A stretch of DNA of 64,000 bases from Flavobacterium piscisymbiosum (GTDB taxonomy: Bacteria > Bacteroidota > Bacteroidia > Flavobacteriales > Flavobacteriaceae), in NCBI RefSeq assembly GCF_020905295.1, contig NZ_JAJJMM010000001.1:3100001-3164000 (forward strand), written 5' to 3'. The position numbers and the translations under genes were made by a program. Below the pieces are notes generated by a model. The model saw only the letters and a list, made by a program, of their open reading frames with translations. It did not search any database and was not told the origin of the DNA. Below, one piece after another: positions 25,134 through 41,080 of this stretch (the stretch's first letter is position 1; each line of letters opens with the position of its first letter).

Positions 25134-26513
25134 TTATTCTGAAAACTCTAATTTTTGTAATTTTTTCCATCCGCCACGAGTGAAATCAGGAATTTCTACA
25201 GGAGACGAGTTATTATCAAGTGAGATCTCTGTTAAAGGACCTAAGCAAGACCATTCTGCAAGATCGTAAACATCCATGTCTAGAGGAAGTCCTTTTTGAA
25301 GACAGTGAATCAATCGGTAATCCATCACGAAATCCATTCCGCCGTGACCGCCTACTTTTTTAGCTTTTTCTTCGATATCTTTTACAATTGGATGCTTGTA
25401 TTTTGCCATCAATGCTTTTTTAACATCTTCAGGAACAAATGAATGTGCACTTAATTTTTCGTGATTTGGTTTTACATCATCTCCTAATGCTGCACCGTCT
25501 AAAGCATAACCTTCTAACGGATATTTGTTGGCAAAACCTTTAGTTCCGCTCAATTGATACATTCTGCTGTACGGACGAGGAGACGTAACATCATGCTGAA
25601 TCTGGATTGTTTTTCCGTTTTCGGTACGAATCATAGTCATGGTATGATCTCCGTTTCTAAAATCTTTAATTTCCTGACCTGATTTTTCTTTGATGTAAGC
25701 AGGATTTCCTACCGCTTTTGTATCCATAGAAACTAAGAAATTCATTTTATCACCACGGTGAATATTCAAAGCCTGACAAGCCGGTCCCATACCGTGAGTT
25801 GCGTAAATATCACCTCGGTGTTTGATGTTGTAATCCATTCTCCAGTTGTTCCAGTATTCGCCCCAAAATGGTTGAAGACCGTGAATGTAAGAACCTTCGG
25901 CATGAAGAATTTCTCCAAACACACCTTGCTGTGCCATATTTAATGTCGTTAATTCGAAGAAATCGTAAACACAATTTTCAAGTTGCATACAATGTTTACG
26001 TGTTTTTTCGGAAGTATCAATAAGGTCCCAGATTTCTTTCATGGTCATAGCACCCGGAACTTCGATTGCTACGTGTTTTCCGTCTTTCATTGCCTGAACA
26101 CCTATTAAAGCATGATGTTTCCAATCTGTTGCGATGTAAACCAAATCAACATTTGGCAAGGCAGTAACTTTTCTCCAGGCATTTTCATCTCCAAAAAATT
26201 CCTGAGCTTTAGGAAGACCAGCTTTTGTTAAAATTTCATTAGCCGATTGTGTGTTTTTCTCTGTCATATCGCAAAGCGCTACGATTTCTACTCCGGGAAT
26301 ATGTGTCATACGCTCAACAGCTCCCGGGCCACGCATTCCTAAACCAATAAAAGCAACACGAACAGTTGGAATTGGAGCAGTAGCCAAACGCAAAACATCT
26401 TGCTGACCTTTTGGACGGGTTGGTGTTTTGGTTTTGATCATTTGTGCCGATGCGATTGCTCCTCCAAACAACAGACAGGCCACTAACATGAATTTTAAAA
26501 TACTAGTTTTCAT
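25134..26513 (-). CDS. GH109-type NAD-dependent glycosidase (alpha-N-acetylgalactosaminidase), exported
   Basis: A 459-residue protein with a signal peptide (GGAIASAQ, about 24 residues), then a Rossmann fold (about 50-170) with VRVAFIGLGMRG. A Gfo/Idh/MocA C-terminal domain follows (HAEGSYIHGLQPFWGEYW, YATHGMGPACQALNIHRGD). Size, export signal and these segments match family GH109, which cleaves terminal alpha-GalNAc from glycans by an NAD-assisted elimination/addition mechanism. A secreted oxidoreductase-like protein inside a SusCD locus supports a glycosidase role. It lies 92 bp after the DUF5077 gene. Substrate specificity is inferred from the family. Confidence 0.82.
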   Translation of the reverse strand: MKTSILKFMLVACLLFGGAIASAQMIKTKTPTRPKGQQDVLRLATAPIPTVRVAFIGLGMRGPGAVERMTHIPGVEIVALCDMTEKNTQSANEILTKAGLPKAQEFFGDENAWRKVTALPNVDLVYIATDWKHHALIGVQAMKDGKHVAIEVPGAMTMKEIWDLIDTSEKTRKHCMQLENCVYDFFELTTLNMAQQGVFGEILHAEGSYIHGLQPFWGEYWNNWRMDYNIKHRGDIYATHGMGPACQALNIHRGDKMNFLVSMDTKAVGNPAYIKEKSGQEIKDFRNGDHTMTMIRTENGKTIQIQHDVTSPRPYSRMYQLSGTKGFANKYPLEGYALDGAALGDDVKPNHEKLSAHSFVPEDVKKALMAKYKHPIVKDIEEKAKKVGGHGGMDFVMDYRLIHCLQKGLPLDMDVYDLAEWSCLGPLTEISLDNNSSPVEIPDFTRGGWKKLQKLEFSE

Positions 26514-26605: not shown

Positions 26606-27925
26606 TTAAGGTAATGTGTCAAAACTTATTTCTGGTTTTTTATTGTTTAAAGGTCTTGTAAAGATCGTTTTTGGTGTTGTATAGTTGTTGAAAAAACCGC
26701 CGTTTTTTAGATAAAAAGAAGTATTGTCGAGTCCGCCTGCAAAATCTATTCGATATTCTTTTCCTCCAGTATTATCTGTTGTAAAACGAGCTGAATTGAT
26801 CTCTGACCAAACTCCTTTATCATCACAAACCCATTGATTGTTGAATAGTACTTTACGAGACAAATCGCCTTGTTCCGGAATAAAATTTTCTAAGAACGAA
26901 TGAAATCTTTTTAAATACGTATTCGTTTCAGGACGATTAAAACTAGCGATTAATAGCCATTTTTGCAATTCAGGTGCATAAAAATAGGCAGTATACGTGG
27001 TTGTATTATTGTTTTGAGGGAATCCTTGTAATAAAAATTTATAAGTAGTTCCTGCTTTCCAGTTGTATTTAAGATAGCTTTGACCGCCAGAACCTTCATT
27101 TCCAAATTCGCCTGTGTGAACATTTTCGCCTTTTTTAAGCATTTTAATTTTATGTGATTCAGGAATACTGGCCGGATCATCAGTATTAAAAGGACTCCAT
27201 ACAGAAAATAAAACTCTTCTTTCTGAAGCCGAATTGACCTGAATACCAAAGTAACCTTCTCCAAAACCATTAGCCATAAAATAAGAACCAATTTTATCTT
27301 CGTTTTCCGGAACGGTAACTTCGTTATAATACCATTTTGCATTGATGTTTTCAGGAACCTGATAGTTTAAATGTACCGATGGCCCGCGACGTCCCCAATG
27401 ATAAAAATTGCCTTCATTATTTGGAACATAGGATATTTTTCCGTCATAATCTGCGCTCGAAATAGTCAGGCGATTTATAGCAGGAAAACGATCTCCTGTT
27501 TTACTGATTCCTTTTATCTTAACGGCAACATAACCTTCCTGATTAATTTTCCAGGTACCAATTGTTACCGCTTTTTTTGAAGTATCAAATTTTACTTTTT
27601 TGGCTTCATTATTAATCGAAAATTCTAATTCTGATTTTCCAACTACTTCTACCGATTCTTCAATAGTTAACTGAAAACTTCCGCCTTTCGAAATTCTGAA
27701 ATAAATGGTAAAAAATTCTTCGGCACTGGTCCAGTTTTCAATTCCGTTATCCGTAATAGTGTTGCTTTCTAAATGTTTCGAGCTGTAAGCGTTTCCAGCT
27801 AACGGGAGCGAAATACTGTTTTTTTGATTTTTTAAAGAAGAATCTTTCTCAGTAATTTCGCTATTCTCTGTACAGGAAAAAGATACAAGTAATGAAGCAA
27901 AAAATAAGTAAAATAAGTTTTTCAT
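26606..27925 (-). CDS. DUF5077/DUF3472 carbohydrate-locus lipoprotein
   Basis: A 439-residue lipoprotein (lipobox SFSCTENS, Cys at about 18). The N-terminal region (about 40-165, IPLAGNAYSSKH-like start and FYFRISKGGSFQLTIEE-type strands) matches the DUF5077 jelly-roll. The following part (about 170-380, WGRRGPSVHLNYQVPENINAKWYYNEV, LFSVWSPFNTDDP) matches DUF3472. These proteins are common in Bacteroidota glycan loci and probably bind or process sugars at the surface; no activity can be assigned. It is separated from susD by a hairpin (27962-27988). Confidence 0.75.
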   Translation of the reverse strand: MKNLFYLFFASLLVSFSCTENSEITEKDSSLKNQKNSISLPLAGNAYSSKHLESNTITDNGIENWTSAEEFFTIYFRISKGGSFQLTIEESVEVVGKSELEFSINNEAKKVKFDTSKKAVTIGTWKINQEGYVAVKIKGISKTGDRFPAINRLTISSADYDGKISYVPNNEGNFYHWGRRGPSVHLNYQVPENINAKWYYNEVTVPENEDKIGSYFMANGFGEGYFGIQVNSASERRVLFSVWSPFNTDDPASIPESHKIKMLKKGENVHTGEFGNEGSGGQSYLKYNWKAGTTYKFLLQGFPQNNNTTTYTAYFYAPELQKWLLIASFNRPETNTYLKRFHSFLENFIPEQGDLSRKVLFNNQWVCDDKGVWSEINSARFTTDNTGGKEYRIDFAGGLDNTSFYLKNGGFFNNYTTPKTIFTRPLNNKKPEISFDTLP

Positions 27926-28014: not shown

Positions 28015-29712
28015 TTATGGATTTTGAGTTAAAGTTCCAGGATACGCATTAATTTCTGATTGCGGAATATATTGAACCACTCTCAAGCTTGAAGCGGGCC
28101 AGTCTGTCATTGGTAAATGAGGACCAGGATAATGACGCGTCATCGTTTGACCATTTCTGTAAACATCGTAACCTCTATGTGCTTCAAACGCTAACTCTAA
28201 CTGACGTTCTTCATCTACTCGTTGTACAGCATTTGTACTGTTTAATGATGTATAACCGCCACCAACAATCGATCTTTCGCGAATTATGTTTAAGTTGGTT
28301 AAAGCACTATTATAATCACCTTTTTTAACATATGCTTCTGCCATGTTCAAATACATCTCGGCCAATCTTGAAATAGAAGGAGAGTAGAGGTGAGAGTCGT
28401 TATTTTGCAAAGAACATTTTGTAATGTAGAACATTGGATACACACGGTTTAGCAGCATCATATAATCTTTTTCGCCTGTATACGTTTTGCCTTCATATTC
28501 AATCGAATATTGATTTTCGGCTGCATTTACTGCAGTTAAGTTATAATCAGCATTTCCTATTGTGATATAAAATGTACCATTAGGATTTGTTTTTAATGGT
28601 TGTTGCATATAGTTATAACCTGTTTGTGTACCTGTAGCATTTTTAACGTCATAAATAAAACGGAATGCCTGAGTTTTGTTTCCTGCATCGTCTGTGGTAT
28701 ATTGCGGATCAATAAAAGCCCAACGCGCATCTTTCTTTAAACCTGATTTTCTTAATAAATCGAGATACTTTGCACTAGCGTACATTTCGCCCCAGCCCTG
28801 ACCTTGAATATTAGCGTACATACCGCCAATTCCGTAATAATGATCGAAACCTGAAAATTCTGAAGCTACTCTTTTAACAGCAAAAATGGTTTCAGTCTGC
28901 TCATCAGAATCTGGTGCATAAGTATTGAATTTCATAAAACTTTCACGACTCAATAATTTATATTTTCCGCTTGTAATTACTTTATTCGCATATTCTATAG
29001 ATTGTGTTGCGTATTCCTGATTAGGATTTTCATAGGTCCCACTCATATATAAGTATACTCTCGAAAGCATTGCCTGAGCAGCTTCTTTAGTAGCATACGC
29101 CGCTGATCTATCAACAGTCATTAAAGATTCGGCTTTTTTCAAATCACTAATTGCTTGCTCATACGTATCTTTTACTGTTGATCTGTCTGGTAATCTCAGA
29201 TTATTTAAATCTGGAGGTAAACCATTTACAATTGGCACTCCTAAATTAGTTTCAGGTGATTGTGCGTAAGGTCTTCCGTAAGTGCGGCATAAATAAAAAT
29301 AAATCATACCTCTTAAATAATAGGCTTCACCAAGTTGTTGGTTTACAGCAGGACTTTCTCCTTCTGAAATCATTTTGATCAAATCGCTTGATTGTGAAAC
29401 GATTTTATAACTGTTATTCCAAAAGACAGATAACCTGTCATTGTTAGGAATATGCTGATACGAAATAAAAGAGTAAAATGAATCTGTAGAAGTTCCTCTA
29501 ATCATAATATTATCGCCAGGATACTCTCCAACTCTGTGCATAACATCAGACCAGCCTTTTAATTGTGCGTAACAGCCATTTAACAAAACCTCTACGGCAG
29601 CTACTTTATCTTGTTCTATTTTGTCTTTTGTGTATGCATTAAATGGTTCTCTGTCTAAATCACATGAGGACAGGAAACTAATCGCCATACATAATATAAA
29701 TATCTTTTTCAT
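28015..29712 (-). CDS. SusD/RagB-family glycan-binding lipoprotein
   Basis: A 565-residue lipoprotein (lipobox LSSCDLDRE, Cys at about 17). The N-terminal SusD-like region (about 20-220) contains AEVLLNGCYAQLKG-type helices and EAYYLRGMIYFYLCRTYG; the C-terminal RagB/SusD region (about 320-565) has LAEMYLNMAEAYVKKGDYNSALTNLN and LAFEAHRGYDVYRNG. SusD proteins cap the SusC transporter on the cell surface and present glycans to it. It directly follows susC (9-bp gap). The SusCD pair and neighbouring enzymes indicate a glycan with GalNAc and galactose ends. Confidence 0.92.
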   Translation of the reverse strand: MKKIFILCMAISFLSSCDLDREPFNAYTKDKIEQDKVAAVEVLLNGCYAQLKGWSDVMHRVGEYPGDNIMIRGTSTDSFYSFISYQHIPNNDRLSVFWNNSYKIVSQSSDLIKMISEGESPAVNQQLGEAYYLRGMIYFYLCRTYGRPYAQSPETNLGVPIVNGLPPDLNNLRLPDRSTVKDTYEQAISDLKKAESLMTVDRSAAYATKEAAQAMLSRVYLYMSGTYENPNQEYATQSIEYANKVITSGKYKLLSRESFMKFNTYAPDSDEQTETIFAVKRVASEFSGFDHYYGIGGMYANIQGQGWGEMYASAKYLDLLRKSGLKKDARWAFIDPQYTTDDAGNKTQAFRFIYDVKNATGTQTGYNYMQQPLKTNPNGTFYITIGNADYNLTAVNAAENQYSIEYEGKTYTGEKDYMMLLNRVYPMFYITKCSLQNNDSHLYSPSISRLAEMYLNMAEAYVKKGDYNSALTNLNIIRERSIVGGGYTSLNSTNAVQRVDEERQLELAFEAHRGYDVYRNGQTMTRHYPGPHLPMTDWPASSLRVVQYIPQSEINAYPGTLTQNP

Positions 29713-29721
29713 GATTTTGTT

Positions 29722-32700
29722 TTAAAGAGTTAAGTTAAGTCCTAATACAATTTTGCGTGTTGAAGGATACACATGTGTAGCAACACCAGAAATAATATAT
29801 TGCTGCGTTGCATCATTGTAAGTAGGAGGAAGCTCAGGATCTACACCAGAATAATGACTAATGGTAAAAAGATTTTCTCCGGCGATATACAATCTTAGGT
29901 TCGAAATATGAAGACGCTGAATAGGTACATTATATCCAAAAGTAATACTGCGCATTTTTAGGTAAGTTCCTGTTTCTAAGAAACGAGAAGATGCTTTGTT
30001 CGACTGGCTACTGTTATCATAAAGTGCCTGAGGATGTGTTGCAATATCACCCGGTTTTTCCCAACGGCTCCATCCGCTGTGAAGTACCATTTGGTTTCTG
30101 TCATTATAAGCACCATCTGAATCAAATTCGGCTCTGGCATAATTATAAATTTGTCCTCCAACAGAATAACTAAAAATAGCCGAAAAGTCAAAATTCTTAT
30201 AATTTAAAGTTGTAGAGAACCCTCCAAAAAAGTCCGGAGTATAAGTTCCTATTGCCTTTTGATTTTTAGAAGCATCAGCGTAACTGTTTGTTTTTACGCG
30301 CTCTCCGGCAGCATTTGTAGTGTACCATTGTGGTTTTCCGTTTGTAGGATCAACACCTGCCCATTCTGTTAAATACCAGCTGTCAACATCTTTACCCGGT
30401 GTTAATAATTTGCTTGCTGAACCCGCAACACCACTACCATCTCCTACAATAATTTGTTGTCTGTCTCCATAAAGGCTTGTTACCTTATTTTTATTCGTAC
30501 CAATGTTAGCATCTACAGACCAATTAAAATTGTCTCCTTTAATGATGTCTACATTAATAGAAGCTTCAAAACCTCTATTGTTTACCGCACCTACATTTCT
30601 CCATATCCCGGTAACTCCAATAACTCCCGGAAGTGGTACATAATACAATAAATCAGAAGTGTTTTTATTATAATAATCCAAAGTAATGTTTACTCTTTTA
30701 AAGAAGCTTACATCCAGACCAACACCAGCTGTAAACGTTTTTTCCCAACTTAAATCAGGATTAGCTAATTGCGATATTAGTGCTCCGGGGCTTTCATTAT
30801 AGCTACTTTTTGAGAAAGAATATAAAGGAAGATGAGGATACAAACTGTTAGGTCGGTTTCCTACAGAACCGTAACTAGCTCTAAGTTTTAAGTTGTTGAT
30901 ATAATCTGCGTGAAAGAATGCTTCATTATGAATGTTCCAGCCTCCACTTATAGAGTAAAAGTTACCATATTGTGCATTTTTACCAAAGTTAGACGCTCCG
31001 TCACGACGAAAAGATACTTGTGCCAAATAGCGGTTATCATACGAATAATTAACATTTGATAATAACGATTGTACAGCCCATTGCTGTCTTCCGCCACCTA
31101 CTTTTTCAGGAACAGCAGCAGCATCCGGAGCTACAATTCCTGGAGGAATTCCAGTTGCAATTCCCTGACTAAATTTTCTATTGTATTCATTCCACTCATA
31201 ACCTGCGATAGCATTAAAGTTATGTTTGCCAAATGATTTATTAAATTTTAATAATTGATTGGTATAGATTCTGTTATAAGTATCAAAGTTATCTTCGATT
31301 CTGCCTTTTACAGCTAATCCGCCAGAAGATCTTGGATCTGTATAATAAGTTGAATTTGAATTGCCAAAAATATAATTGTTTACAGAAGAAAAAGTCAACC
31401 AGCTTGTAAATTTAATATCAAAATCAAGATTAGCTCTCACGGTGTAATTTTCAGATTCACCGTAATTCCATTGCAAATCATATAAATAGTTTGATCCCGT
31501 AGTATTGACCCAAGTTGGGTTTGGAGCGTTTCCTACCAAAGATCCATCTTCCATATACGGACTATCCCAAGGCATATTTCCGTACAAAGCACCAACACTA
31601 TGTTGTTGATCATAGGTTGTTTCTCGGGTTAAATTTATTTGTGGTCTTAATGTAAACCAAGTATTTGGTTTGTATTCAAATTTCATAAGACCATTATATT
31701 TTTTGTAATCATAACCTTTAATCGCTCCGGTTTCTTTATAAACCCCTACAGAAACATAACTTTTAAAGTTTTCACCTCCGCCACTTATCGATAAATTATA
31801 ATCTTCTGCAATACCGGTTTGGGTAGCATTATCCCACCAGTCAAAGTTTTTATTTCTTAATTCCGGATTCCACCACCAAACATTCTCGAATGCTTGTTTG
31901 TTTTCGAATGAATCATATAAATCATATAATTGAGCGCCATTCATAATTTTAAAATTTCCGTTGTTTAAAGTAGTCATGGCAGTTTTGGCAGAAAAACTAA
32001 TAACAGCTTTTCCTGTTTTTCCGCTTTTAGTTGTAACGACAATTACACCATTTGCTCCCTGCGAACCGTAAACTGCTGTAGAGGCAGCGTCTTTAAGAAC
32101 CGTCAACGTTTCAATATCAGATGGATTCATGTTGGCAGAACTATTCCCCACAATAACTCCGTCAATTACCCATAAAGGATCTGTACTTCCGTTGACGGTG
32201 GTTTTTCCTCGAATTACTATTTTTGCTATCGCTCCCGGTTGACCTCCACCTGTATTTACATATACTCCGGAAGCTTTTCCTGCAAGCATGTTTTCGACAG
32301 AAGGAGTCGTTACATCAACAATTTTTTTACTGTCTAAAGTTTGTAATGATCCGGTTAAGCTCTCTTTTTTGATCTTGCTGTAACCTACAATTACAACCTC
32401 GTTCATTTGTTCGCCAGCTTCTTTCATTACTACTTTAAGAGCATTGTTTCCTGCTGGTATTTCCTGGTCTTCCATTCCTAGAAAAGTAAAAACCAGTATA
32501 GTACCCTCATTTGGAACTTCAATAGCAAAACTTCCGTCGATATCAGTTTGCACTCCCTTTGTTGTGCCTTTTATAACAACATTTACACCTGGAACCGGAA
32601 TTCCTTTTTGATCTACAACCTTTCCTTTTACGATTTTTTGAAACGCAGGTAAATTAATTTCATTTACCGGAATCTCTTTAGAAGGTGCTGCCGTTGTAAT

Positions 32701-32805
32701 TTGAAAACTTAAAGACAACAAGGAAAGTACTGTTGTTTTTAAACTCTTTTCAAGTACAGTATGCATCCTAAAATTTTTAGGTTTTTTTGAGAATACTTTG
32801 TTCAT
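29722..32805 (-). CDS. SusC/RagA-family TonB-linked outer membrane transporter
   Basis: A 1027-residue outer-membrane protein. A signal peptide follows a basic N-terminus (an internal Met at residue 14 is an alternative start). Next is a carboxypeptidase-regulatory-like domain (about 57-130, GKVVDQKGIPVPGVNVVIKG), then a TonB-box-like EVVIVGY (about 136-142). The plug domain (about 150-265) shows LAGKASGVYV, IRGKTTVNGS and VLKDAASTAVYGSQGANGVI. A 22-strand barrel runs to the C-terminus. It imports oligosaccharides handed over by SusD, powered by TonB. It is first in the minus-strand arm, with a leader of about 150 nt and a dual-operator promoter at 32960-33043. Confidence 0.95.
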   Translation of the reverse strand: MNKVFSKKPKNFRMHTVLEKSLKTTVLSLLSLSFQITTAAPSKEIPVNEINLPAFQKIVKGKVVDQKGIPVPGVNVVIKGTTKGVQTDIDGSFAIEVPNEGTILVFTFLGMEDQEIPAGNNALKVVMKEAGEQMNEVVIVGYSKIKKESLTGSLQTLDSKKIVDVTTPSVENMLAGKASGVYVNTGGGQPGAIAKIVIRGKTTVNGSTDPLWVIDGVIVGNSSANMNPSDIETLTVLKDAASTAVYGSQGANGVIVVTTKSGKTGKAVISFSAKTAMTTLNNGNFKIMNGAQLYDLYDSFENKQAFENVWWWNPELRNKNFDWWDNATQTGIAEDYNLSISGGGENFKSYVSVGVYKETGAIKGYDYKKYNGLMKFEYKPNTWFTLRPQINLTRETTYDQQHSVGALYGNMPWDSPYMEDGSLVGNAPNPTWVNTTGSNYLYDLQWNYGESENYTVRANLDFDIKFTSWLTFSSVNNYIFGNSNSTYYTDPRSSGGLAVKGRIEDNFDTYNRIYTNQLLKFNKSFGKHNFNAIAGYEWNEYNRKFSQGIATGIPPGIVAPDAAAVPEKVGGGRQQWAVQSLLSNVNYSYDNRYLAQVSFRRDGASNFGKNAQYGNFYSISGGWNIHNEAFFHADYINNLKLRASYGSVGNRPNSLYPHLPLYSFSKSSYNESPGALISQLANPDLSWEKTFTAGVGLDVSFFKRVNITLDYYNKNTSDLLYYVPLPGVIGVTGIWRNVGAVNNRGFEASINVDIIKGDNFNWSVDANIGTNKNKVTSLYGDRQQIIVGDGSGVAGSASKLLTPGKDVDSWYLTEWAGVDPTNGKPQWYTTNAAGERVKTNSYADASKNQKAIGTYTPDFFGGFSTTLNYKNFDFSAIFSYSVGGQIYNYARAEFDSDGAYNDRNQMVLHSGWSRWEKPGDIATHPQALYDNSSQSNKASSRFLETGTYLKMRSITFGYNVPIQRLHISNLRLYIAGENLFTISHYSGVDPELPPTYNDATQQYIISGVATHVYPSTRKIVLGLNLTL

Positions 32806-32959: not shown

Positions 32960-32990
32960 CGAAACTATCGATTATATTTTTATTAACCAA
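32960..32990 (-). promoter_or_regulatory. susC promoter (-33 and -7)
   Basis: On the minus strand, TTG (complement of 32988-32990) and TAGTTTCG (complement of 32960-32967, one mismatch to TAnnTTTG) are separated by 20 bp. The same pair with the same spacing and almost the same surrounding sequence occurs at 35466-35496. Expected transcript start is near 32953, about 148 nt before the susC ATG. Confidence 0.75.
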
Positions 32991-33006
32991 GAAAAAACAC
33001 GAAAAA

Positions 33007-33043
33007 TGTGCTCGAACACACAAAAAAAGTGTTCTCGAGCACA
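33007..33043. promoter_or_regulatory. Twin LacI-type operators at the susC promoter
   Basis: TGTGCTCGAACACA (33007-33020) and TGTTCTCGAGCACA (33030-33043) are near-perfect 14-bp palindromes with a central CG, typical of LacI-family operators. Their centres are 23 bp apart, about two helical turns. They lie just upstream of the -33 element. Reverse complements of exactly these two sequences occur in the same order relative to transcription at 35414-35450, upstream of the kinase gene and next to the LacI-family regulator gene. Confidence 0.85.
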
Positions 33044-33440
33044 TAAAATTGTACGATACGTTTTTTTTAATATAAAATCATGTGATTATTCTAAAAAAAA
33101 GCACAAAAAGCACATCGCTTTATTTTAGGCGTATTCGCAACTATGATATTTTATTTTTAAGGAATAAAAACTAGTTGTTTGTATTTCTAAGAATATCGCA
33201 ATCATCAATTAATTTGTTTAATAATAAATCAAACTTTTAAAGGTTTTAAATTGATCCGTTTTTTCTTATTATTTACTTTTTAAATAAAAGTGCAATAAAA
33301 AAAGCGATTAGGTTTTAAATAAAAGATTCACTTATATTAGCATTTTTATAAGAAGTTTTTTTAAGTCGATTTTCTACCTTTTAAAATGATTAAAATGCTT
33401 CAGGATGTCATTTTCATTAAATTAAATTTTTCCAAAAAAT

Positions 33441-34091
33441 ATGCACGAAATTTTAAAAGAATATCAAGTAGTTTTAATCGAAAAAAAACAAATAAATAAC
33501 GACCCAATTTTGAATTCTTCTGTATGGGAAAAAGCAAATTGTTTAACTGATTTTTGTTCTCCGTGGAAAAATGATTCGTTTTCGAAAATTGAATTTAAGG
33601 CGCTTCATGATCACGAAAATTTCTATTTTAATTTTAGGGTTTTTGATACTGATATTTATATCGATCAAAAAGACAATAGTTTCCTGAGTATAGGAAACTC
33701 AGATCGGGTAGAACTGTTTTTTAGAACCAATGAATCCTTAAATCCTTATTATTGCCTTGAAATGGATACATCAGGCCGAATAATGGATTTTAAAGCGCTT
33801 CCTGAAAAGAATTTTGATTTTAACTGGAAATGGCCTAAAAAGGATATAGAAGTAAAAACTTCAAAGGATGTAGTTTCATTTATTGTTGAAGGAAAAATTA
33901 GTATTCAATCCCTAAAAGATTTAAATTTAATTCAGAACAATACAATTGAAGCCGGAGTTTTCAGGGCAAAATTCGCTCTGGTCGAAAATCTGCAATACGA
34001 ACCCACCTGGATTTCGTGGGTAAACCCAAATACTGAAACGCCTAATTTTCATATCGCTTCTTCGTTTGGGAAGTTTGTTTTAATGAAATAG
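33441..34091 (+). CDS. CBM9-like carbohydrate-binding protein without signal peptide
   Basis: A 216-residue protein whose whole length resembles the beta-sandwich of carbohydrate-binding family 9 and related DOMON-like domains: NDPILNSSVWEKANCL, KALHDHENFYFNFRVFD, IGNSDRVELFFRTNES, YYCLEMDTSGRIMDF. The late segment FRAKFALVENLQYEPTWISW and the end FHIASSFGKFVL also fit. No signal peptide or lipobox is visible at this start, which is unusual for a glycan-binding protein. It is transcribed away from susC, between the two operator cassettes. It may bind sugars in the cytoplasm, or the true start may be mis-set. Confidence 0.72.
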   Translation: MHEILKEYQVVLIEKKQINNDPILNSSVWEKANCLTDFCSPWKNDSFSKIEFKALHDHENFYFNFRVFDTDIYIDQKDNSFLSIGNSDRVELFFRTNESLNPYYCLEMDTSGRIMDFKALPEKNFDFNWKWPKKDIEVKTSKDVVSFIVEGKISIQSLKDLNLIQNNTIEAGVFRAKFALVENLQYEPTWISWVNPNTETPNFHIASSFGKFVLMK

Positions 34092-34145
34092 GTTTAGAAA
34101 AAGAGGCAAAGGTTCAAAGGTTCAAAGGGACAAAGTTTAAGAGGT

Positions 34146-34308
34146 TTTGCCCACGGATTAAACGGATTCAAACTGGTTTTCGCTGGTTTTTTAGTACAAG
34201 GTTGATAAAAAAAATCTGCTAAATCTGTTAAATCTGCGAGCAAACTTTGCCACACAGATAAAAAAAGTCCGTGTAAACCAGTTTGAATCCGTTACATCCG
34301 TGGGCAAA
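34146..34308. repeat. Long hairpin repeat with 34-bp arms
   Basis: Arms 34146-34179 and 34275-34308 are inverted copies with 2 mismatches in 34, starting TTTGCCCACGGAT. The 95-bp loop carries further repeat words (AATCTGCTAAATCTG). It separates the convergent CBM9-like and LacI-family genes and may act as a terminator for both. Confidence 0.85.
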
Positions 34309-34312
34309 TAAT

Positions 34313-35353
34313 TTACAATACGTAAAACGAAGCATTCTCCACATTAATAATATCAATAGGCAACAAGATTGTTTCCGGGATATCTTTGCGGAATAAGAAA
34401 TGCTCTACCAAAGTACTAACACCTAAATAAGCCTGTCTTTTTTGATTTTGATGAATTAAAAAATGCACCAATCCCTGATTCAGGAAGTTGACATTCTTTT
34501 CGACTAAATCGTAACCAATAATGGCAATTTTTTTATTTTTTAAAGGAGCTAAAATCGAAGCAATCTGATACGCTTTAGAAGTTGTGATAAAAATCCCTTT
34601 CAGGTTTGGATTTTCTTCCAAAAAGGCCGAAAATTTACTTTCGACATTAGGATGTTTTAATTTTAAAGTAGTTAAAGAAAAATCGGCAATCTTCTTTTCG
34701 TCGAAATAATTTCTAAAACCCTTTTCTTTTTCCTGCATGTGAACTGCATTTTTTACGCTTTCATCTATGTGTACAATCGCAATTTGCCCCTCAGTTAAAA
34801 TCAAATTCATTAAACTGGCGGCGACACGACCACTTTTATGCAAATCCTGCCCCACAAAACTCTTAATAGATTCGCTTTCAATTTGGTTATTAAAAGTGTT
34901 TACGATTATTTCGAGTTCGTCATATTGTTTTACGATTTCAAGCGTTTCCTTATGAAATAAAGGAGCAATTAAAACGGCGTCTGGCGATTGTTTAAGAATC
35001 GTTTCGTGCGCATTTAAAAACGATTTTTTGCTTTCAGGATTAAAGTAATGGGTTTCTATAATAACACCGTACGCTTTAAACTCTGTTTTAGCTTCCTGAA
35101 TTCCGTTTACGCACGGCAGCCAATATGGATCTATTTCCGGATCCGGAAGTAAAACGCAAATACGATACACTTTAGTGTTTTTTAAATTACGGGCAATTAA
35201 GTTAGGCTCATAATTAATGACGTTCAAGACTTCATTAATTTTATCCAGCGCCGTTGGAGAAACTTTTCCTCTGTTATGCAAAACACGATCTACAGTTCCT
35301 TTAGAAACTCCGGCCATTTTTGCTATATCCTTAATAGTGTACTTTTTATCCAT
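34313..35353 (-). CDS. LacI-family transcriptional regulator of the sugar locus
   Basis: A 346-residue protein with an N-terminal LacI helix-turn-helix (about 5-27, YTIKDIAKMAGVSKGTVDRVL) and hinge helix (about 45-62). A type I periplasmic-binding-like sensor domain follows (about 65-346, YRICVLLPDPEIDPYW, SFVGQDLHKSGRVAASLM, IAIIGYDLVEKN). The family binds palindromes with a central CG and senses a small sugar or sugar phosphate. The operators at 35414-35450, only 61 bp upstream of its start, and at 33007-33043 are the obvious targets, so it likely controls both arms and itself. Whether it represses or activates is unknown; the operators lie upstream of -33. Confidence 0.88.
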   Translation of the reverse strand: MDKKYTIKDIAKMAGVSKGTVDRVLHNRGKVSPTALDKINEVLNVINYEPNLIARNLKNTKVYRICVLLPDPEIDPYWLPCVNGIQEAKTEFKAYGVIIETHYFNPESKKSFLNAHETILKQSPDAVLIAPLFHKETLEIVKQYDELEIIVNTFNNQIESESIKSFVGQDLHKSGRVAASLMNLILTEGQIAIVHIDESVKNAVHMQEKEKGFRNYFDEKKIADFSLTTLKLKHPNVESKFSAFLEENPNLKGIFITTSKAYQIASILAPLKNKKIAIIGYDLVEKNVNFLNQGLVHFLIHQNQKRQAYLGVSTLVEHFLFRKDIPETILLPIDIINVENASFYVL

Positions 35354-35413
35354 ATAAGCAAATATAGAAACTTTGCTTTAATTATTTAAAAAAATATTGT
35401 TCGAATTAATAAG

Positions 35414-35450
35414 TGTGCTCGAGAACATTAATTTAGTGTGTTCGAGCACA
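35414..35450. promoter_or_regulatory. Twin LacI-type operators between regulator and kinase genes
   Basis: TGTGCTCGAGAACA (35414-35427) and TGTGTTCGAGCACA (35437-35450) are exact reverse complements of the two operators at the susC promoter. They have the same 23-bp centre spacing and the same order relative to the downstream gene. They sit between the divergent LacI-family and GHMP kinase genes. Confidence 0.85.
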
Positions 35451-35465
35451 TTTTTAGTTTTTTTC

Positions 35466-35496
35466 TTGGTTTATAAAAATATAATCTATAGTTTCG
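35466..35496 (+). promoter_or_regulatory. Promoter of the sugar-catabolism operon (-33 and -7)
   Basis: TTG (35466-35468), 20 bp, then TAGTTTCG (35489-35496). This is a near-copy of the susC promoter, including the flanking AAAATATAAT and GTTTCGT words. Expected transcript start is near 35502, about 84 nt before the kinase start codon. Confidence 0.75.
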
Positions 35497-35585: not shown

Positions 35586-36677
35586 GTGAAAAAAATTACT
35601 TCATTAGCTCCCGGCCGAACGTGCCTCTTTGGGGATCATCAGGATTATTTAGGATTGCCGGTTATAGCCTGTGCAATCGATCGAAATATAAAACTAACCG
35701 CCGAACAAAATACTGCAAATACGTTTGTGCTTAACATGATCGATATTGGCGAAATCAGGGTTATTAATATCGATGCTACTTTCGATACATTAGAACCTCG
35801 CGATTATTTTGCCTCTTCGTTACGCGTTTTGCGACGATATGGTTGTGTGCCCAATGTAGGTTACACCATTACCATTACAGGGGATATTCCTATAAATTCA
35901 GGAACATCAAGTTCATCGGCTTTATTGATGGCCTGGATTCGATTTTTGATTGATGCTTTTGGAGTTGATCACGAAGTTACTCCTGAATTTATAGCCAAAG
36001 TTGGATATGAATCTGAAGTTTTAGAACACGGAGAACCAGGCGGAATGATGGATCATTTTAGCATTGGGGTAGGGAATGTGGTGTATATTAATACCAAAGA
36101 ACCTTTTTCGTTTAAAGTAATCAGATCAGATCTTAAAGGTTTAATAACAGGAGTTTCGGGCGTGCCCAAAGAAACGATTGGATTGATTGGCGAAATAAAA
36201 GGAAACGCTTTAATGTCGATTGGCATTGTAAAACAAAATTTTCCTGATTTTGATTTGAATACTTCTGAAATAGAAGATATAGATCGCTACAGAAATTGTT
36301 TACCAGATCGATTGATTCCGTTTTTTGAAGCCGCGCTAAAAAATTTCCATTATACCAAAGAAGCTTTAAAAGAATTCGAAAAGCCTGTTTTAGATCTCAA
36401 AAAAATTGGCGTATTAATGAATCAGCATCATGAAGTTTTACGTGATTTATTGAAAATTACAGTACCAAGAATCGATGATATGATCAATGCAGCTTTGCGT
36501 GCAGGAGCATACGGAGCTAAAATTGTAGGTTCTGGCGGTGGCGGAAGCATTGTGGTAATTGCCAATCCTGAAAAAGAAGCCGCGGTAATCGAGGCTATTT
36601 TAAAAGCCGGTGCAGAAGAAGCTTACGCGGTTGCTGTAGATCCGGGCGTGAGAATTATAGAAAATATTGAAATTTAA
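35586..36677 (+). CDS. GHMP-family sugar kinase (galactokinase/N-acetylhexosamine kinase-like)
   Basis: A 363-residue kinase with GHMP motif 1 (APGRTCLFGDHQDYLG, 8-23), the ATP-binding motif 2 (PINSGTSSSSALL, 102-114) and motif 3 (KIVGSGGGGSIVVI, near 320). Motif 1 reads GDHQDY where galactokinases have GEHTDY, so the sugar is probably not plain galactose. In this locus an N-acetylhexosamine or galactosamine 1-kinase is plausible. The start is GTG at 35586; an ATG at 35563 is out of frame. It is first in a plus-strand operon, 9 bp before the nucleotidyltransferase gene. Product identity is inference; the fold is sure. Confidence 0.82.
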   Translation: MKKITSLAPGRTCLFGDHQDYLGLPVIACAIDRNIKLTAEQNTANTFVLNMIDIGEIRVINIDATFDTLEPRDYFASSLRVLRRYGCVPNVGYTITITGDIPINSGTSSSSALLMAWIRFLIDAFGVDHEVTPEFIAKVGYESEVLEHGEPGGMMDHFSIGVGNVVYINTKEPFSFKVIRSDLKGLITGVSGVPKETIGLIGEIKGNALMSIGIVKQNFPDFDLNTSEIEDIDRYRNCLPDRLIPFFEAALKNFHYTKEALKEFEKPVLDLKKIGVLMNQHHEVLRDLLKITVPRIDDMINAALRAGAYGAKIVGSGGGGSIVVIANPEKEAAVIEAILKAGAEEAYAVAVDPGVRIIENIEI

Positions 36678-36686
36678 AAAATAAAT

Positions 36687-37562
36687 ATGCACAACAATTT
36701 AGTTATTCTGGCAGGTGGAGCATCATCCCGAATGAAAAAAGAAGCCGTTCTTGATAATTTATCAGCAGAAGAAATCGCTCAGGCAAACGAAAGAAGTAAA
36801 GGTTTAATTGGTGTTGGCGCAAGCGGAAGGCCTTTATTAGATTATCTTTTATTGAATGCCAAAAAAGCAGGATATAAAAACATCTATATTATTATAGGAG
36901 AACAAGGCGAGTTGTTTAAGGAATTTTACGGAAGTCAAAATCTTAATAATGATTTTCACGGACTCAACATTTCCTTTGCCGTACAATATATTCCCGAAGG
37001 AAGAGTAAAACCCTTTGGCACAGCCGATGCTTTGTTTCAGGCTGTAGAACAATTTCCGGAATTAACCTCGCAGCAATATTCTGTTTGTAACAGTGACAAT
37101 TTATATTCGGCGAAAGCCTTATTAGCACTTAGAGAAACAACTAGTCCTAATGCTTTTATCGCTTACGATCGTGATGCATTAGAGTTTCCGTCTGAAAGGA
37201 TTTCGCGTTTCGCTATTGCAAAATTAGATCATAACAATCAATTATTAGACATTCTCGAAAAACCTTCTGCCGATGTTTTAGCAGATTACAAAGATGTCGA
37301 AGGAAAAATAAGAGTGAGTATGAATGCTTTTAAATTCAACGGAAGTACATTATATACCCATCTTAAAAATTGTCCCGTTCATCCGGAAAGAGACGAAAAA
37401 GAATTACCAACCGTACTTTTAAATTCAGTAAAAGAACATCCAAATACCACTTTGGGAATTCCGTTTTCAGAGCACGTTCCGGATTTAACGGCCAAAGAAG
37501 ATATTGCCGATGTCAAAGCATATTTAAAACAATATTATCCTGTTTTAGACTGGCAAGCCTAG
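36687..37562 (+). CDS. Sugar-1-phosphate nucleotidyltransferase-like protein
   Basis: A 291-residue protein with the nucleotidyltransferase fold: LAGGASSRM (8-16) binds the NTP, ADALFQAVEQF follows near 113, and VCNSDNLY (near 132-139) sits where these enzymes bind the metal, with Asn-Ser-Asp in place of the usual Gly-Asp. The loop between LAGG...RM and the first helix is long (EAVLDNLSAEEIAQANER). It follows the GHMP kinase by 9 bp, so the two probably act in sequence: sugar to sugar-1-phosphate to NDP-sugar. The exact sugar and nucleotide are unknown. It is cytoplasmic. Confidence 0.78.
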   Translation: MHNNLVILAGGASSRMKKEAVLDNLSAEEIAQANERSKGLIGVGASGRPLLDYLLLNAKKAGYKNIYIIIGEQGELFKEFYGSQNLNNDFHGLNISFAVQYIPEGRVKPFGTADALFQAVEQFPELTSQQYSVCNSDNLYSAKALLALRETTSPNAFIAYDRDALEFPSERISRFAIAKLDHNNQLLDILEKPSADVLADYKDVEGKIRVSMNAFKFNGSTLYTHLKNCPVHPERDEKELPTVLLNSVKEHPNTTLGIPFSEHVPDLTAKEDIADVKAYLKQYYPVLDWQA

Positions 37563-37671
37563 AAAAAATTAACAAAAAATTGATATCTAATTTACGAATA
37601 AGTACAACTTATTAGAGTACTTTTATTTTAAATTTGCAAAAAAAATGCATTAAATTGTATTTTAATTGCAA

Positions 37672-37679
37672 TATATTTG
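37672..37679 (+). promoter_or_regulatory. Possible internal promoter (-7 element) before the MFS gene
   Basis: TATATTTG matches TAnnTTTG and lies 66 bp before the MFS ATG, in the 183-bp gap after the nucleotidyltransferase gene. No TTG is at the standard distance (one lies at 14 bp), so confidence is modest. Confidence 0.4.
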
Positions 37680-37745
37680 CAAAAGTGTTGACGTTATTTT
37701 AGATAGAAAAAAGTACTAATCTATTAATAATCAACCAAAAAAAAT

Positions 37746-39125
37746 ATGTCAAACATTGAAAGTGTATTACAAATAGAAAAAAGGAGTACCATTATTCCGA
37801 TGATCATTTTAACCGCTTTATTTTTTATTCTAGGTTTTGTTACCTGGCTCAACGGTCCTTTAATTCCATTTTTTCAATTGGCTTGTGAGTTAACCTCTTC
37901 TCAGGCTTATTTTGTAACTTTTGCTTTTTACATCGCTTATTTTGTAATGGCAATTCCGTCATCATGGGTAATCGAAAAAGTAGGGTATAAAAATGGTATT
38001 TCGTTAGGATTATTGATCATTGCTGCGGGCGCATTTATGTTTTATCCCGCTGCCGAAAGCCGAACTTTTGTATTGTTTTTAATTGCATTATTTGTAATGG
38101 GAACCGGTTTGGCCATTTTGCAGACAGCATCAAATCCATATGTGGTCGTTATTGGTCCACGAGAAAGTGCTGCGGCGAGAATTAGTGTTTTGGGAATTGC
38201 AAATAAAATGGCAGGATTCGTAGCTCCGCTGATATTAACAGCTTTGGTTTTGTCTAATATGCAGGAGTTTACGGCAGATAAAATAGCATTGCTGGATTCG
38301 GTTTCAAAATCAAACGCATTAAATTCTCTTGCATTGCAATTGCAAAGACCTTACCTTTATATGGGATTAATTATAATGGTTTTGGCGCTTTTAGTGAAGT
38401 TATCGCCACTTCCTGAAATTGATTTGGATGAAGAAGGAAATGTAACCCATTTGAGTATTTTTAAACAAATGAGAAATGCGTTCAAACGCCCTCAATTGGT
38501 TTTAGGAGTAATCACGTTAATGCTCTATTTGTCTGCCGAAGTTTTAGCGGGAGATTCTATTGGAGGTTTCGGAAAAGAATTAGGAGTTTACGGAACAGAA
38601 GGAAATTTTTATTTAAAATTGACTTCTTTCACAATGTCGGCAATGGTTGTGGGGTATATTTTAGGAATCACATTAATACCTAAATATCTTTCGCAAGTTA
38701 CGGCGCTAAAGGCATCAGGAGTTTTAGGCGTAATTTTAGTTTTGGCAATTGTTTTTATTTCGCCAAAAATAATGTTTCAGTTACCCGGGATTCCAAATTT
38801 ACCGGTCGTGATACTTTTAGTAGCATTACTGGGCCTGGCAAATGCGTTGTGCTGGCCTGCAATCTGGCCAATGGCGCTGGAAGATTTAGGAGGCTATACT
38901 AAAATTGGAAGTGCAATTTTGATCATGGGTATTATAGGAGGAGCCATTTTTCCTTTGTTATACGGATTGATCACAGAAAATATAAACGCATCAAATATTG
39001 CAAACGGAACCGTTGAAATTTCGAAAAGCGGAAATCAGATTGCCTATTTAATGTTGTTGCCATCTTATTTAATGATTCTTTTTTACGCTATAAAAGGACA
39101 TAAATATCGAAGTTGGAAAATGTAA
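37746..39125 (+). CDS. Sugar MFS transporter (FucP/NagP-like)
   Basis: A 459-residue inner-membrane carrier with twelve helices. It has the features of the FucP-type sugar:H+ symporters: FFILGFVTWLNGPLIPFFQ in helix 1, VMAIPSSWVIEKVGYKNGI in the helix 2-3 loop, GTGLAILQTASNPYVVVIGP in helix 4. The second-half segment GLANALCWPAIWPMALEDLGGYTKIGSA is very typical. Relatives carry fucose, glucose/galactose or GlcNAc (NagP). In this locus it likely brings the monosaccharides released by the GH enzymes into the cytoplasm, including an N-acetylated amino sugar. The NagB/PIG-L gene follows at 26 bp. Confidence 0.88.
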   Translation: MSNIESVLQIEKRSTIIPMIILTALFFILGFVTWLNGPLIPFFQLACELTSSQAYFVTFAFYIAYFVMAIPSSWVIEKVGYKNGISLGLLIIAAGAFMFYPAAESRTFVLFLIALFVMGTGLAILQTASNPYVVVIGPRESAAARISVLGIANKMAGFVAPLILTALVLSNMQEFTADKIALLDSVSKSNALNSLALQLQRPYLYMGLIIMVLALLVKLSPLPEIDLDEEGNVTHLSIFKQMRNAFKRPQLVLGVITLMLYLSAEVLAGDSIGGFGKELGVYGTEGNFYLKLTSFTMSAMVVGYILGITLIPKYLSQVTALKASGVLGVILVLAIVFISPKIMFQLPGIPNLPVVILLVALLGLANALCWPAIWPMALEDLGGYTKIGSAILIMGIIGGAIFPLLYGLITENINASNIANGTVEISKSGNQIAYLMLLPSYLMILFYAIKGHKYRSWKM

Positions 39126-39151
39126 CGAGAGGAATTAAAAAAAACTATATC

Positions 39152-41080
39152 ATGTTAAAAAGTAAAACAGACAAAGCGACAGGATTCGAGAAACGATTTG
39201 AAAACATCAATACAATTGTTTTCGAAAATTCTGGTGAAGCATCAAAAGCAGTAGCGCAGGAAATTGCAGCTTTAATTCAATCCAGGCAAAAAGAAAGTAA
39301 GCCTTGCATTTTAGGACTTGCAACAGGATCTTCTCCAAAAGGATTGTACGCTGAATTGGTTCGCTTGCATAAAGAGGAAGGTTTGAGTTTTAAAAACGTA
39401 ATCAGTTTTAATTTGGATGAATATTATCCAATGGAACCAAACTCCATCAATAGTTATGTTCGTTTTATGAAAGAATTACTGTTTGATCACGTTGACATTT
39501 TACCTGAAAACTCTCATGTTCCAGACGGACTTTTAACAAAAGAACAAATCGCAGATTATTGCCACGAATACGAAGCTAAAATTGAAGCTCTTGGCGGAAT
39601 TGATCTTCAGATTCTGGGAATTGGTGGTAACGGACATATAGGTTTTAATGAATCAGGTTCACTACAAAACTCTAAAACCCGTTTGGTCGCTTTAGATCAT
39701 ATTACAAGAGTTGCTGCAAGTAAAGATTTCTTTGGTTTGAGTAATACGCCAAGAACTGCTATCACGCTTGGAGTTAAAAAAATCATGGAAGCGAAAAGAG
39801 TCATCTTATTGGCTTGGGGAGAAGGAAAAGCAAATGTGGTAAAAAGATCTGTAGAGGATGAAGTTACGAATAGAGTACCGGCTTCATTTTTGCAGGAGCA
39901 CAACAATGCCGTTTTTATTTTAGATAAAGAAGCTTCTTCAAAACTTACGAGAATTAACAAACCTTGGCTGGTAGAAAAAGTAGAATGGACAGATAAACTG
40001 ACTCGTAAAGCAGTTTTAGGATTGGCACTTCAGCTTAAGAAACCAATTTTAATGCTGACAGATGCTGATTATATCGAACACGGAATGAGCGATTTATTAG
40101 CTGATTCTGGTCCTGCATACGACATCAACATTAAGATTTTTAATAAATTACAAAATACAATTACAGGCTGGCCAGGTGGAAAACCAAATGCAGACGATTC
40201 TAACCGTCCTGAAAGAGCAGAACCGGCCAAAAAACGTGTATTGATTTTTAGTCCGCATCCTGATGATGATATTATTAGTATGGGGGGAACTTTTATGCGT
40301 TTGCAAGATCAGGGACATGAAGTGCACGTTGCGTATCAAACTTCGGGAAATATCGCTGTAGCGGATGATGAAGCGTTGCGTTTTGCAAGATTCGTAATTG
40401 ATTACAATGAAAAATTCGGAATCAAAAGTCCTGAAGCAGATGATATTTACAAAAAAGCCCAAACTTTCCTTGAGAATAAAAAGAACAGTGAAATAGATAT
40501 TCCCGAAGTTCGTTACATCAAAGGATTAATTAGAAAAGGCGAGGCGAGAGCAACAAGTCATTTTGTTGGTTTAAGTGATGATCAGATTCATTTTATGGAA
40601 TTGCCTTTCTACGAAACCGGAACAATCGAGAAAAAACCAATCGGACAAGAAGATATTCAGTTGACGATGGATTTAATCGAAAAAATTAAGCCACATCAAA
40701 TATATGCTGCAGGAGATTTAGCAGATCCGCATGGAACGCACAAAGTATGTCTGGATGCTATTTTTGAAGCTGTAAAAGCACTTAAACCAAAATCATTTAT
40801 GGATGATTGCTGGTTATGGTTATACCGTGGAGCTTGGCAGGAATGGGGAATTGACGAAGTCGAAATGGCTGTACCAATGAGCCCGGATCAGGTTTTGGCA
40901 AAACGTCACGGAATCTTCAAACACCAATCGCAAAAAGACGGTGTTGTTTTTCAGGGAACTGATGCCCGTGAATTCTGGCAAAGAGCCGAAGACAGAAATG
41001 CCGAAACTGCTGCTTTGTACCAGGAATTAGGTTTGGCAACGTACGCAGCGATGGAAGCTTTCGTGAGATGGCACTATTAA
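39152..41080 (+). CDS. nagB: Glucosamine-6-phosphate deaminase fused to a PIG-L/LmbE deacetylase domain
   Basis: A 642-residue two-domain protein. Residues 20-290 are NagB: LGLATGSSPKGLY (phosphate loop), FNLDEYY (D89, E90) and GIGGNGHIGFNESGS (catalytic His near 162). Residues 360-642 are a PIG-L/LmbE zinc deacetylase: VLIFSPHPDDD (H369, D371, D372) and DPHGTHKVC with a further zinc His. NagB turns glucosamine-6-phosphate into fructose-6-phosphate plus ammonia. The second domain could remove the N-acetyl group first, replacing a separate NagA, which is absent nearby. The start at 39152 follows the MFS stop by 26 bp; an earlier start at 39113 overlaps that gene and lacks support. Confidence 0.88.
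   Translation: MLKSKTDKATGFEKRFENINTIVFENSGEASKAVAQEIAALIQSRQKESKPCILGLATGSSPKGLYAELVRLHKEEGLSFKNVISFNLDEYYPMEPNSINSYVRFMKELLFDHVDILPENSHVPDGLLTKEQIADYCHEYEAKIEALGGIDLQILGIGGNGHIGFNESGSLQNSKTRLVALDHITRVAASKDFFGLSNTPRTAITLGVKKIMEAKRVILLAWGEGKANVVKRSVEDEVTNRVPASFLQEHNNAVFILDKEASSKLTRINKPWLVEKVEWTDKLTRKAVLGLALQLKKPILMLTDADYIEHGMSDLLADSGPAYDINIKIFNKLQNTITGWPGGKPNADDSNRPERAEPAKKRVLIFSPHPDDDIISMGGTFMRLQDQGHEVHVAYQTSGNIAVADDEALRFARFVIDYNEKFGIKSPEADDIYKKAQTFLENKKNSEIDIPEVRYIKGLIRKGEARATSHFVGLSDDQIHFMELPFYETGTIEKKPIGQEDIQLTMDLIEKIKPHQIYAAGDLADPHGTHKVCLDAIFEAVKALKPKSFMDDCWLWLYRGAWQEWGIDEVEMAVPMSPDQVLAKRHGIFKHQSQKDGVVFQGTDAREFWQRAEDRNAETAALYQELGLATYAAMEAFVRWHY

Follow-up and report, generated by a model that had tools for sequence, protein, structure and literature searches.

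Matching operator-promoter cassettes on both arms of a flavobacterial glycan locus and their putative LacI-family activator

How can two divergent operons of a glycan locus be switched on jointly if one regulator gene lies between them? This question is raised by a stretch of 64,000 nucleotides from Flavobacterium piscisymbiosum (contig NZ_JAJJMM010000001.1, positions 3,100,001 to 3,164,000), here called the window. An operon starting with a SusC-type receptor gene (minus strand, 32805 to 23188) and an operon starting with a sugar kinase gene (plus strand, 35586 to 41080) are located on either side of a gene for a LacI-family protein (34313–35353). An initial annotation proposed that a duplicated promoter-operator cassette drives both arms. 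The present analysis supports one promoter-operator design common to both, and the cassette is probably the target promoter of the LacI-family protein, which would activate both operons from about −58 with help from about −81.

The operator pair and its core promoter

Near-copies of the cassette are present at the susC and the kinase-operon promoter (Table 1). Towards the gene each consists of TGTGCTCGAGAACA, 9 bp, TGTGTTCGAGCACA and then 46–47 bp ending in TAGTTTCG, i.e. the same two 14-bp palindromes in the same order and with a step of 23 bp, as had been annotated. Both 14-mers are imperfect palindromes (six of seven pairs) with the half-site TGTGCTCG facing outward. The operators are identical between the cassettes, and four of the nine spacer positions differ. 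Downstream of the proximal site the single indel described earlier is found, together with three substitutions in place of about four over 58 bp. No exact match to TGTKYTCGARMACA exists in the window besides the four cassette sites. If up to two mismatches are allowed, 10 matches occur, compared to a mean of 3.68 and a maximum of 9 in 100 shuffles.

The own genome (6,487,610 bases) contains five exact single sites, namely these four and one at 276493. Single sites are near background, because at up to one mismatch 35 of them stand against 23 for the reversed control. A search for pairs spaced by 23 bp, as proposed in the initial annotation, returned these two promoters only: neither a third pair nor a third copy of the 31-bp core promoter exists in the 6.49-Mb genome at ≤3 mismatches, and the cassette is thus not one of many unrelated copies. 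No further promoter was found in this genome with the exact pattern TAGTTT 24–54 bp from TGTNNTCGANNACA, and none with the operator followed by 39 bp and TANTTTMG at ≤3 mismatches (a search that covered the 39-bp form only), where the reversed control gave one match.

For the numbering of the operators, the −7 box of sigma-A promoters was set at −12 to −5 according to the start-site map of F. psychrophilum (PMC9723704). Placement was determined in 111 unique pairs with 75-bp flanks, in which TAnnTTnG was sought 33–44 bp from the pair ends. The box stands past one end only in 103 of them, either at 38 bp (33 pairs) or at 39 bp (70 pairs) and at no other distance; six of the other eight have no box on either side and two have a box on both. 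A third operator intervenes in G440, so the orientation assigned to this member of the 103 is probably wrong. Boxes 44–55 bp from pair ends are also common (39 of 222 ends) and belonged mostly to the TATATTTG type of the regulator in a recount. Since exactly TGTGCTCGAGAACA upstream and TGTGTTCGAGCACA downstream were found in 74 of the 103 oriented pairs, the pair is directional.

Starting from operator-like 14-mers (≤1 mismatch, each strand), 124 of the 229 boxes at 20–60 bp stand at 38 or 39 bp, and a second cluster at 46–53 bp consists mostly of TATATTTG, the −7 kind of the regulator itself, on the other side. TAGTTT 24–54 bp from TGTNNTCGANNACA gave at least 150 rows in 299 genomes, 119 of which are operator-like. 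Among the matches listed, 110 of these 119 are placed at 38 or 39 bp (five of the 110, from related genomes, on the distal side of a pair) and none comes from a genome without an orthologue of the regulator. Five rows with TGTTTTCGAAAACA were set aside; if included, the values are 110 of 124 and one of 124 (G010), respectively.

The second operator is offset by 23 bp in 87 of 104 promoters, by 22 bp in five, by 21 bp in two, by 24 bp in one and by 44–45 bp in two; in seven it is absent at ≤3 mismatches. With this threshold and 32 offsets, the real consensus was found in 97 of the 104 promoters and the reversed one in 10. Arrays of three operators occur in G094, G168 and G293 as well as in G300 and G534 of another genus.

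The core promoter behind the operators is recurrently defective. Both promoters of the window possess the TTG of the −33 element and a −7 element spoiled to TTTCG. TAGTTTCG occurs in 81 of the 103 oriented pairs and a TTTG box in one. Of 124 promoters, 98 combine TTG with a non-consensus −7 box, eight have a consensus −7 box without TTG, 15 have neither and three both, without correction for kinship. The count of 3/124 is the one used here; another box pattern, which misses some consensus boxes, gave 1/102 with both. Ordinary upstream regions of the own genome (n = 103) contain TAnnTTTG 41 times in sense and 13 times in antisense direction, and TAnnTTCG 4 and 5 times, respectively. Conservation of the 20 bp that separate the −33 from the −7 box (32960–32990, 35466–35496) is 64–97 % per position across genes and genomes.

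Co-occurrence of operator pair and regulator gene

Two genome samples were used, 299 genomes of the same genus and 299 drawn family-wide. In the genus sample, for which the counts were taken from per-genome tables, the operator pair is present in 63 genomes and an orthologue of the regulator (best match 57–100 % identity) in 68; the reversed pair control gave 0 throughout. The best protein match of the remaining genomes is at most 36 % identical among the matches listed. All 63 genomes with the pair possess the orthologue and none of the 231 genomes without orthologue has the pair (Fisher p 2.5e-59), i.e. the pair was found only together with the regulator. Twelve genomes of the family draw, the own one included, carry the pair at ≤2 mismatches, and all of them are among the 44 whose orthologue is ≥46 % identical. 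In eight of the 11 pair genomes from other genera the pair is located 36–45 bp upstream of the start of the regulator match.

Five of the 68 orthologue genomes are pair-less, and four of these retain at least one single palindrome. In G092, G117 and G151 it occupies the proximal position, and TATAGTTTCG follows at the usual distance; the regulator of G151 lies at a contig end, and G092 carries one more single palindrome. In G270 the palindrome is found upstream of a nucleotidyltransferase gene and is followed after 38 bp, as counted by eye, by the poorer box TAGATTTC. Because of these single sites, either palindrome can stand alone, the proximal one being the core.

The LacI-family gene lies between the cassettes as annotated, with a gap of 60 bp to the second one in place of 61. 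It very likely encodes the regulator of both, as had been presumed; that the protein itself binds the sites is what we infer from the co-occurrence (63 of 63 against 0 of 231). Its N-terminal helix-turn-helix (HTH) domain is of the LacI type (PF00356, 52.5 bits, cut-off 27) and is followed by a sugar-binding domain resembling periplasmic binding proteins (PF13407, 106.8 bits, cut-off 35.1). These domains, together with an even palindromic operator with central CG, place the protein in the LacI family, for whose operators a central CG is usual (PMC4052901, section 9). The closest solved sensor domain is that of PDB 3gbv (E 9.3e-39, residues 57–344), a putative LacI-family regulator; the entry comprises the sensor domain only and its molecule name gives no function. 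Only two residues follow the match to this relative, so the LacI-type tetramer helix is absent. The regulator's own −7 box, TATATTTG, stands five bases before the ATG (35354–35366, minus strand), so its mRNA is probably almost leaderless. This arrangement recurs in relatives.

Proposed activation and the alternatives

How both operons would be activated can be sketched as follows. A first dimer of the LacI-family protein would occupy the CG-centred proximal operator (about −58), and a helper dimer the distal one (about −81), presumably in a cooperative manner. The dimers would recruit RNA polymerase with the main sigma factor to an inherently weak core promoter, and a sugar from the glycan would serve as the signal. 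Outer-membrane uptake and cleavage (SusC/D, GH109, GH35) would thereby be switched on jointly with cytoplasmic sugar use (kinase, nucleotidyltransferase, NagP-like transporter, NagB/PIG-L). Activation is favoured over repression and over a DNA loop because the placement is fixed and the core promoter is usually defective. There is about an even chance that the protein is a true LacI-family activator of flavobacterial glycan loci which acts via a standard module, composed of an obligatory dimer locked at −58, one or at times two optional cooperating dimers at 21–24-bp steps above it and a core kept deficient in −7 or −33, and placed before susC, sugar-kinase and further loci across the family.

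Several points weigh against activation by this protein. One genome (G105) has the orthologue, yet no site was found in the 9.5 kb read nor by genome-wide pair and operator-box patterns. Of the 44 genomes of the family draw whose orthologue is ≥46 % identical, 32 lack a 23-bp pair at ≤2 mismatches, although pairs spaced by 22 bp or single sites are present in some of them. The genomes are related and hence not independent samples, and the Fisher p value takes no account of kinship. A poor −7 box demonstrates a weak promoter only, and both boxes are present in the three promoters mentioned above. Operator pairs with a variant centre, described below, may belong to another regulator. Finally, an operator near −60 is compatible with repression by contact, as in E. 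coli GalR, which represses from −60.5.

Repression of both promoters by the same regulator from −58/−81, either through contact with RNA polymerase or by blocking of an activator and with release by the sugar, is nevertheless unlikely. Most characterised LacI-family proteins repress, and the distance of the kinase-side pair to the regulator's own start would fit negative autoregulation, but in the 103 oriented pairs the operators are upstream of the core promoter and never over it. Furthermore, their placement varies by no more than 1 bp between genes and between genomes, and a repressed promoter would not need a core that is so rarely consensus.

It is very improbable that the sites belong to another DNA-binding protein, e.g. 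a global sugar regulator, with the LacI-family gene as a bystander. The own genome does carry nine LacI-type genes, but the co-occurrence with this orthologue is one-way, the pair lies just upstream of the regulator match in most pair genomes of other genera, and a strict scan revealed no 23-bp pair in the neighbourhoods (20 kb each) of the eight other LacI-type genes. The only CG-centred palindrome pair with a spacing of 14–60 bp in these neighbourhoods is 21 bp apart, so the 23-bp pair is not general to the LacI proteins of this genome. It is located near another LacI-type gene at genome position 1530775 (locus L115).

A DNA loop of about 2.4 kb which joins both cassettes via a regulator tetramer, considered beside activation in the initial annotation, appears very improbable. 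Although operator pairs flank the regulator gene with a median distance of 2,371 bp in 44 genomes, this distance ranges from 1,512 to 18,196 bp and has no helical phase (Rayleigh p 0.18–0.48, 30 genomes). Further pairs, with positions listed for 33 genomes, lie 17–20 kb off, about 100 kb off (G150) or on other contigs. The regulator has no C-terminal extension and hence no tetramer helix, which separates it from the tetrameric looping type of LacI. Of the two modes once considered, activation is the one favoured by the locked placement and the weak core.

A recent origin of the second cassette by copying of the first, with a likeness due to shared descent alone, can practically be dismissed: only 3 substitutions and 1 indel separate the 46–47 bp past the operators and identity within a genome (0.929) is slightly over that of kinase-side with susC-side cassettes across genomes (0.917, sd about 0.03), but it is not above same-side identity between genomes (kinase-kinase 0.922, susC-susC 0.931), and the spacing is side-specific (38 bp in 26 of 28 kinase-side and 39 bp in 25 of 25 susC-side cassettes). 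The identities refer to 24 genomes that carry the two cassettes in a single locus, from the 30 closest orthologue loci. In the sense of a recent copy, the word "duplicated" is therefore not supported. Recent duplication or gene conversion was rejected as a candidate, with only the slight excess over the crosswise value in its favour. Selection is enough to explain the likeness of the cassettes, because identity within a genome is about that of the same cassette between genomes; an old duplication and an independent origin are indistinguishable by core identity.

If activation by the LacI-family protein is true, the rule of an operator end 38–39 bp before a poor −7 box would locate target promoters by sequence alone. 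The cassette would also be a candidate inducible promoter for flavobacterial genetics.

The locus and its relation to known systems

Table 1 Positions of promoter elements and genes at the glycan locus of the window
Feature	Position	Strand	Remarks
Distal operator, susC promoter	33030..33043	−	TGTGCTCGAGAACA on minus strand; centre ~ −81.5
Proximal operator, susC promoter	33007..33020	−	TGTGTTCGAGCACA; centre ~ −58.5
−33 element TTG, susC promoter	32988..32990	−	
−7 element TAGTTTCG, susC promoter	32960..32967	−	consensus TAnnTTTG; 39 bp past proximal operator
Distal operator, kinase-operon promoter	35414..35427	+	centre ~ −80.5; 60 bp from regulator start codon
Proximal operator, kinase-operon promoter	35437..35450	+	centre ~ −57.5
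−33 element TTG, kinase-operon promoter	35466..35468	+	
−7 element TAGTTTCG, kinase-operon promoter	35489..35496	+	38 bp past proximal operator
LacI-family regulator, 346 aa (amino acids)	34313..35353	−	LacI HTH 6–51, Peripla_BP_4 66–318, no C-terminal extension
Regulator's own consensus −7 box TATATTTG	35359..35366	−	just before ATG; predicted start ~35354
SusC-type TonB-dependent receptor	29722..32805	−	minus arm gene 1
SusD-type glycan-binding protein	28015..29712	−	
DUF5077-DUF3472 protein	26606..27925	−	
GH109-type protein	25134..26513	−	top solved relatives GH109 and alpha-N-acetylgalactosaminidase
GH35 beta-galactosidase-type protein	23188..25047	−	
GHMP-family sugar kinase	35586..36677	+	plus arm gene 1
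Nucleotidyltransferase	36687..37562	+	
NagP-resembling MFS transporter	37746..39125	+	466.5 bits, under family cut-off 625
NagB-like/PIG-L fusion	39113..41080	+	glucosamine-6-phosphate deaminase-like
CBM9-type gene	33441-34091		between the arms like the LacI-family gene

Both neighbouring operons probably take up and use one glycan (Table 1). The relatives of the GH109-type protein and the gene content of further and other-genus loci point to O-glycans containing N-acetylgalactosamine (GalNAc) as the likely substrate. Top solved relatives of this protein are the GH109 enzyme 6t2b (E 7.9e-91) and the alpha-N-acetylgalactosaminidase 2ixa (E 4.1e-72). Those of the GHMP kinase are mixed, with mevalonate kinase (E 1.2e-23), galactokinase (3.1e-19) and GalNAc kinase (3.6e-16).

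Further operator pairs in other genomes precede SusC-type genes (L120, L122, L123, L124, L125) or a DUF3472-GH109 operon (L121), and near them a GLAA-B-type gene (GH110-like; L120) and M1-peptidase genes (L121, L122) are found. A cytochrome-c-type protein is encoded downstream of the SusC-type gene behind one of these pairs (L124:16220-17209). In a locus from another genus (L130), the operon opposite the same regulator encodes a nucleotidyltransferase, an APH-type kinase and a protein of the UDP-sugar-epimerase type. The latter two stand where the window has the GHMP-type kinase (L130:8850-13030), likely a swap of unrelated sugar kinases. Loci with variant operators combine an APH-type kinase with GH20 and GH29 (L126) or with GH35 (L128, L129). 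Their operator pairs have the variant centre TGTGCACGAGCACA and keep the 23-bp step; a regulator of these three loci was not found.

Where the switch of a Bacteroidota glycan locus is known, it is mostly a hybrid two-component system, a pair of extracytoplasmic function (ECF) sigma and anti-sigma factors or a SusR-like protein. LacI-family genes at polysaccharide loci and double sites of LacI-family proteins are already published. The former lie beside xylan loci in Gramella flava (PMC5306329) and in xylan systems with TonB-dependent transporters (PMC12125979); there the substrate is xylan, and the available text of both gives neither an operator geometry nor a role of the LacI-family protein as activator. 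The activator XylRA of Vibrio is an AraC/LacI hybrid (PMC12125979). Bacteroides KdgR, UxaR, UxuR and UxmR are LacI-family sugar regulators from the same phylum; they are listed for uronate pathways, and the word "activator" is never used in the available text (PMC3878776).

Double sites of LacI-family proteins peak at 13, 22 and 32 bp; RafR (Enterobacteriales) and ScrR (Burkholderiales) possess double sites only, to which two dimers are inferred to bind cooperatively (PMC4052901, section 9). The cassette shares with these two regulators a pair of CG-centred palindromes about two helical turns apart. In contrast to their obligatory double sites with 21–22 bp only, the step here is mostly 23 bp (87/104 promoters), the distal site is sometimes missing (7/104 single), and the sites have a fixed place upstream of a weak promoter at SusC/D loci.

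Activator sites at about equal upstream distances before a weak core promoter are also known from class I activation by CRP, whose sites are at −61.5 and −82.5. A fixed upstream placement on a non-consensus promoter is likewise found here, with 38 or 39 bp in all 103 oriented pairs, but CRP belongs to another protein family and the promoter is of the Bacteroidota type with −33 and −7 boxes. E. coli GalR at the gal operon resembles the proposed regulator as a LacI-family dimer which touches RNA polymerase from near −60. GalR loops to an internal operator, whereas at the present locus none was seen downstream and the spacing between pairs varies. In open-licence full texts of PubMed Central, searched for LacI-type control of glycan loci in flavobacteria or Bacteroidota, for double sites and for LacI activators, no title dealt with this system and no description was found of a LacI-family protein as a position-locked activator of glycan loci. 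The locus differs from the published systems in the locked placement combined with a poor core promoter, in the optional distal site and in the presumed joint control of a SusC/D and a sugar-kinase operon.

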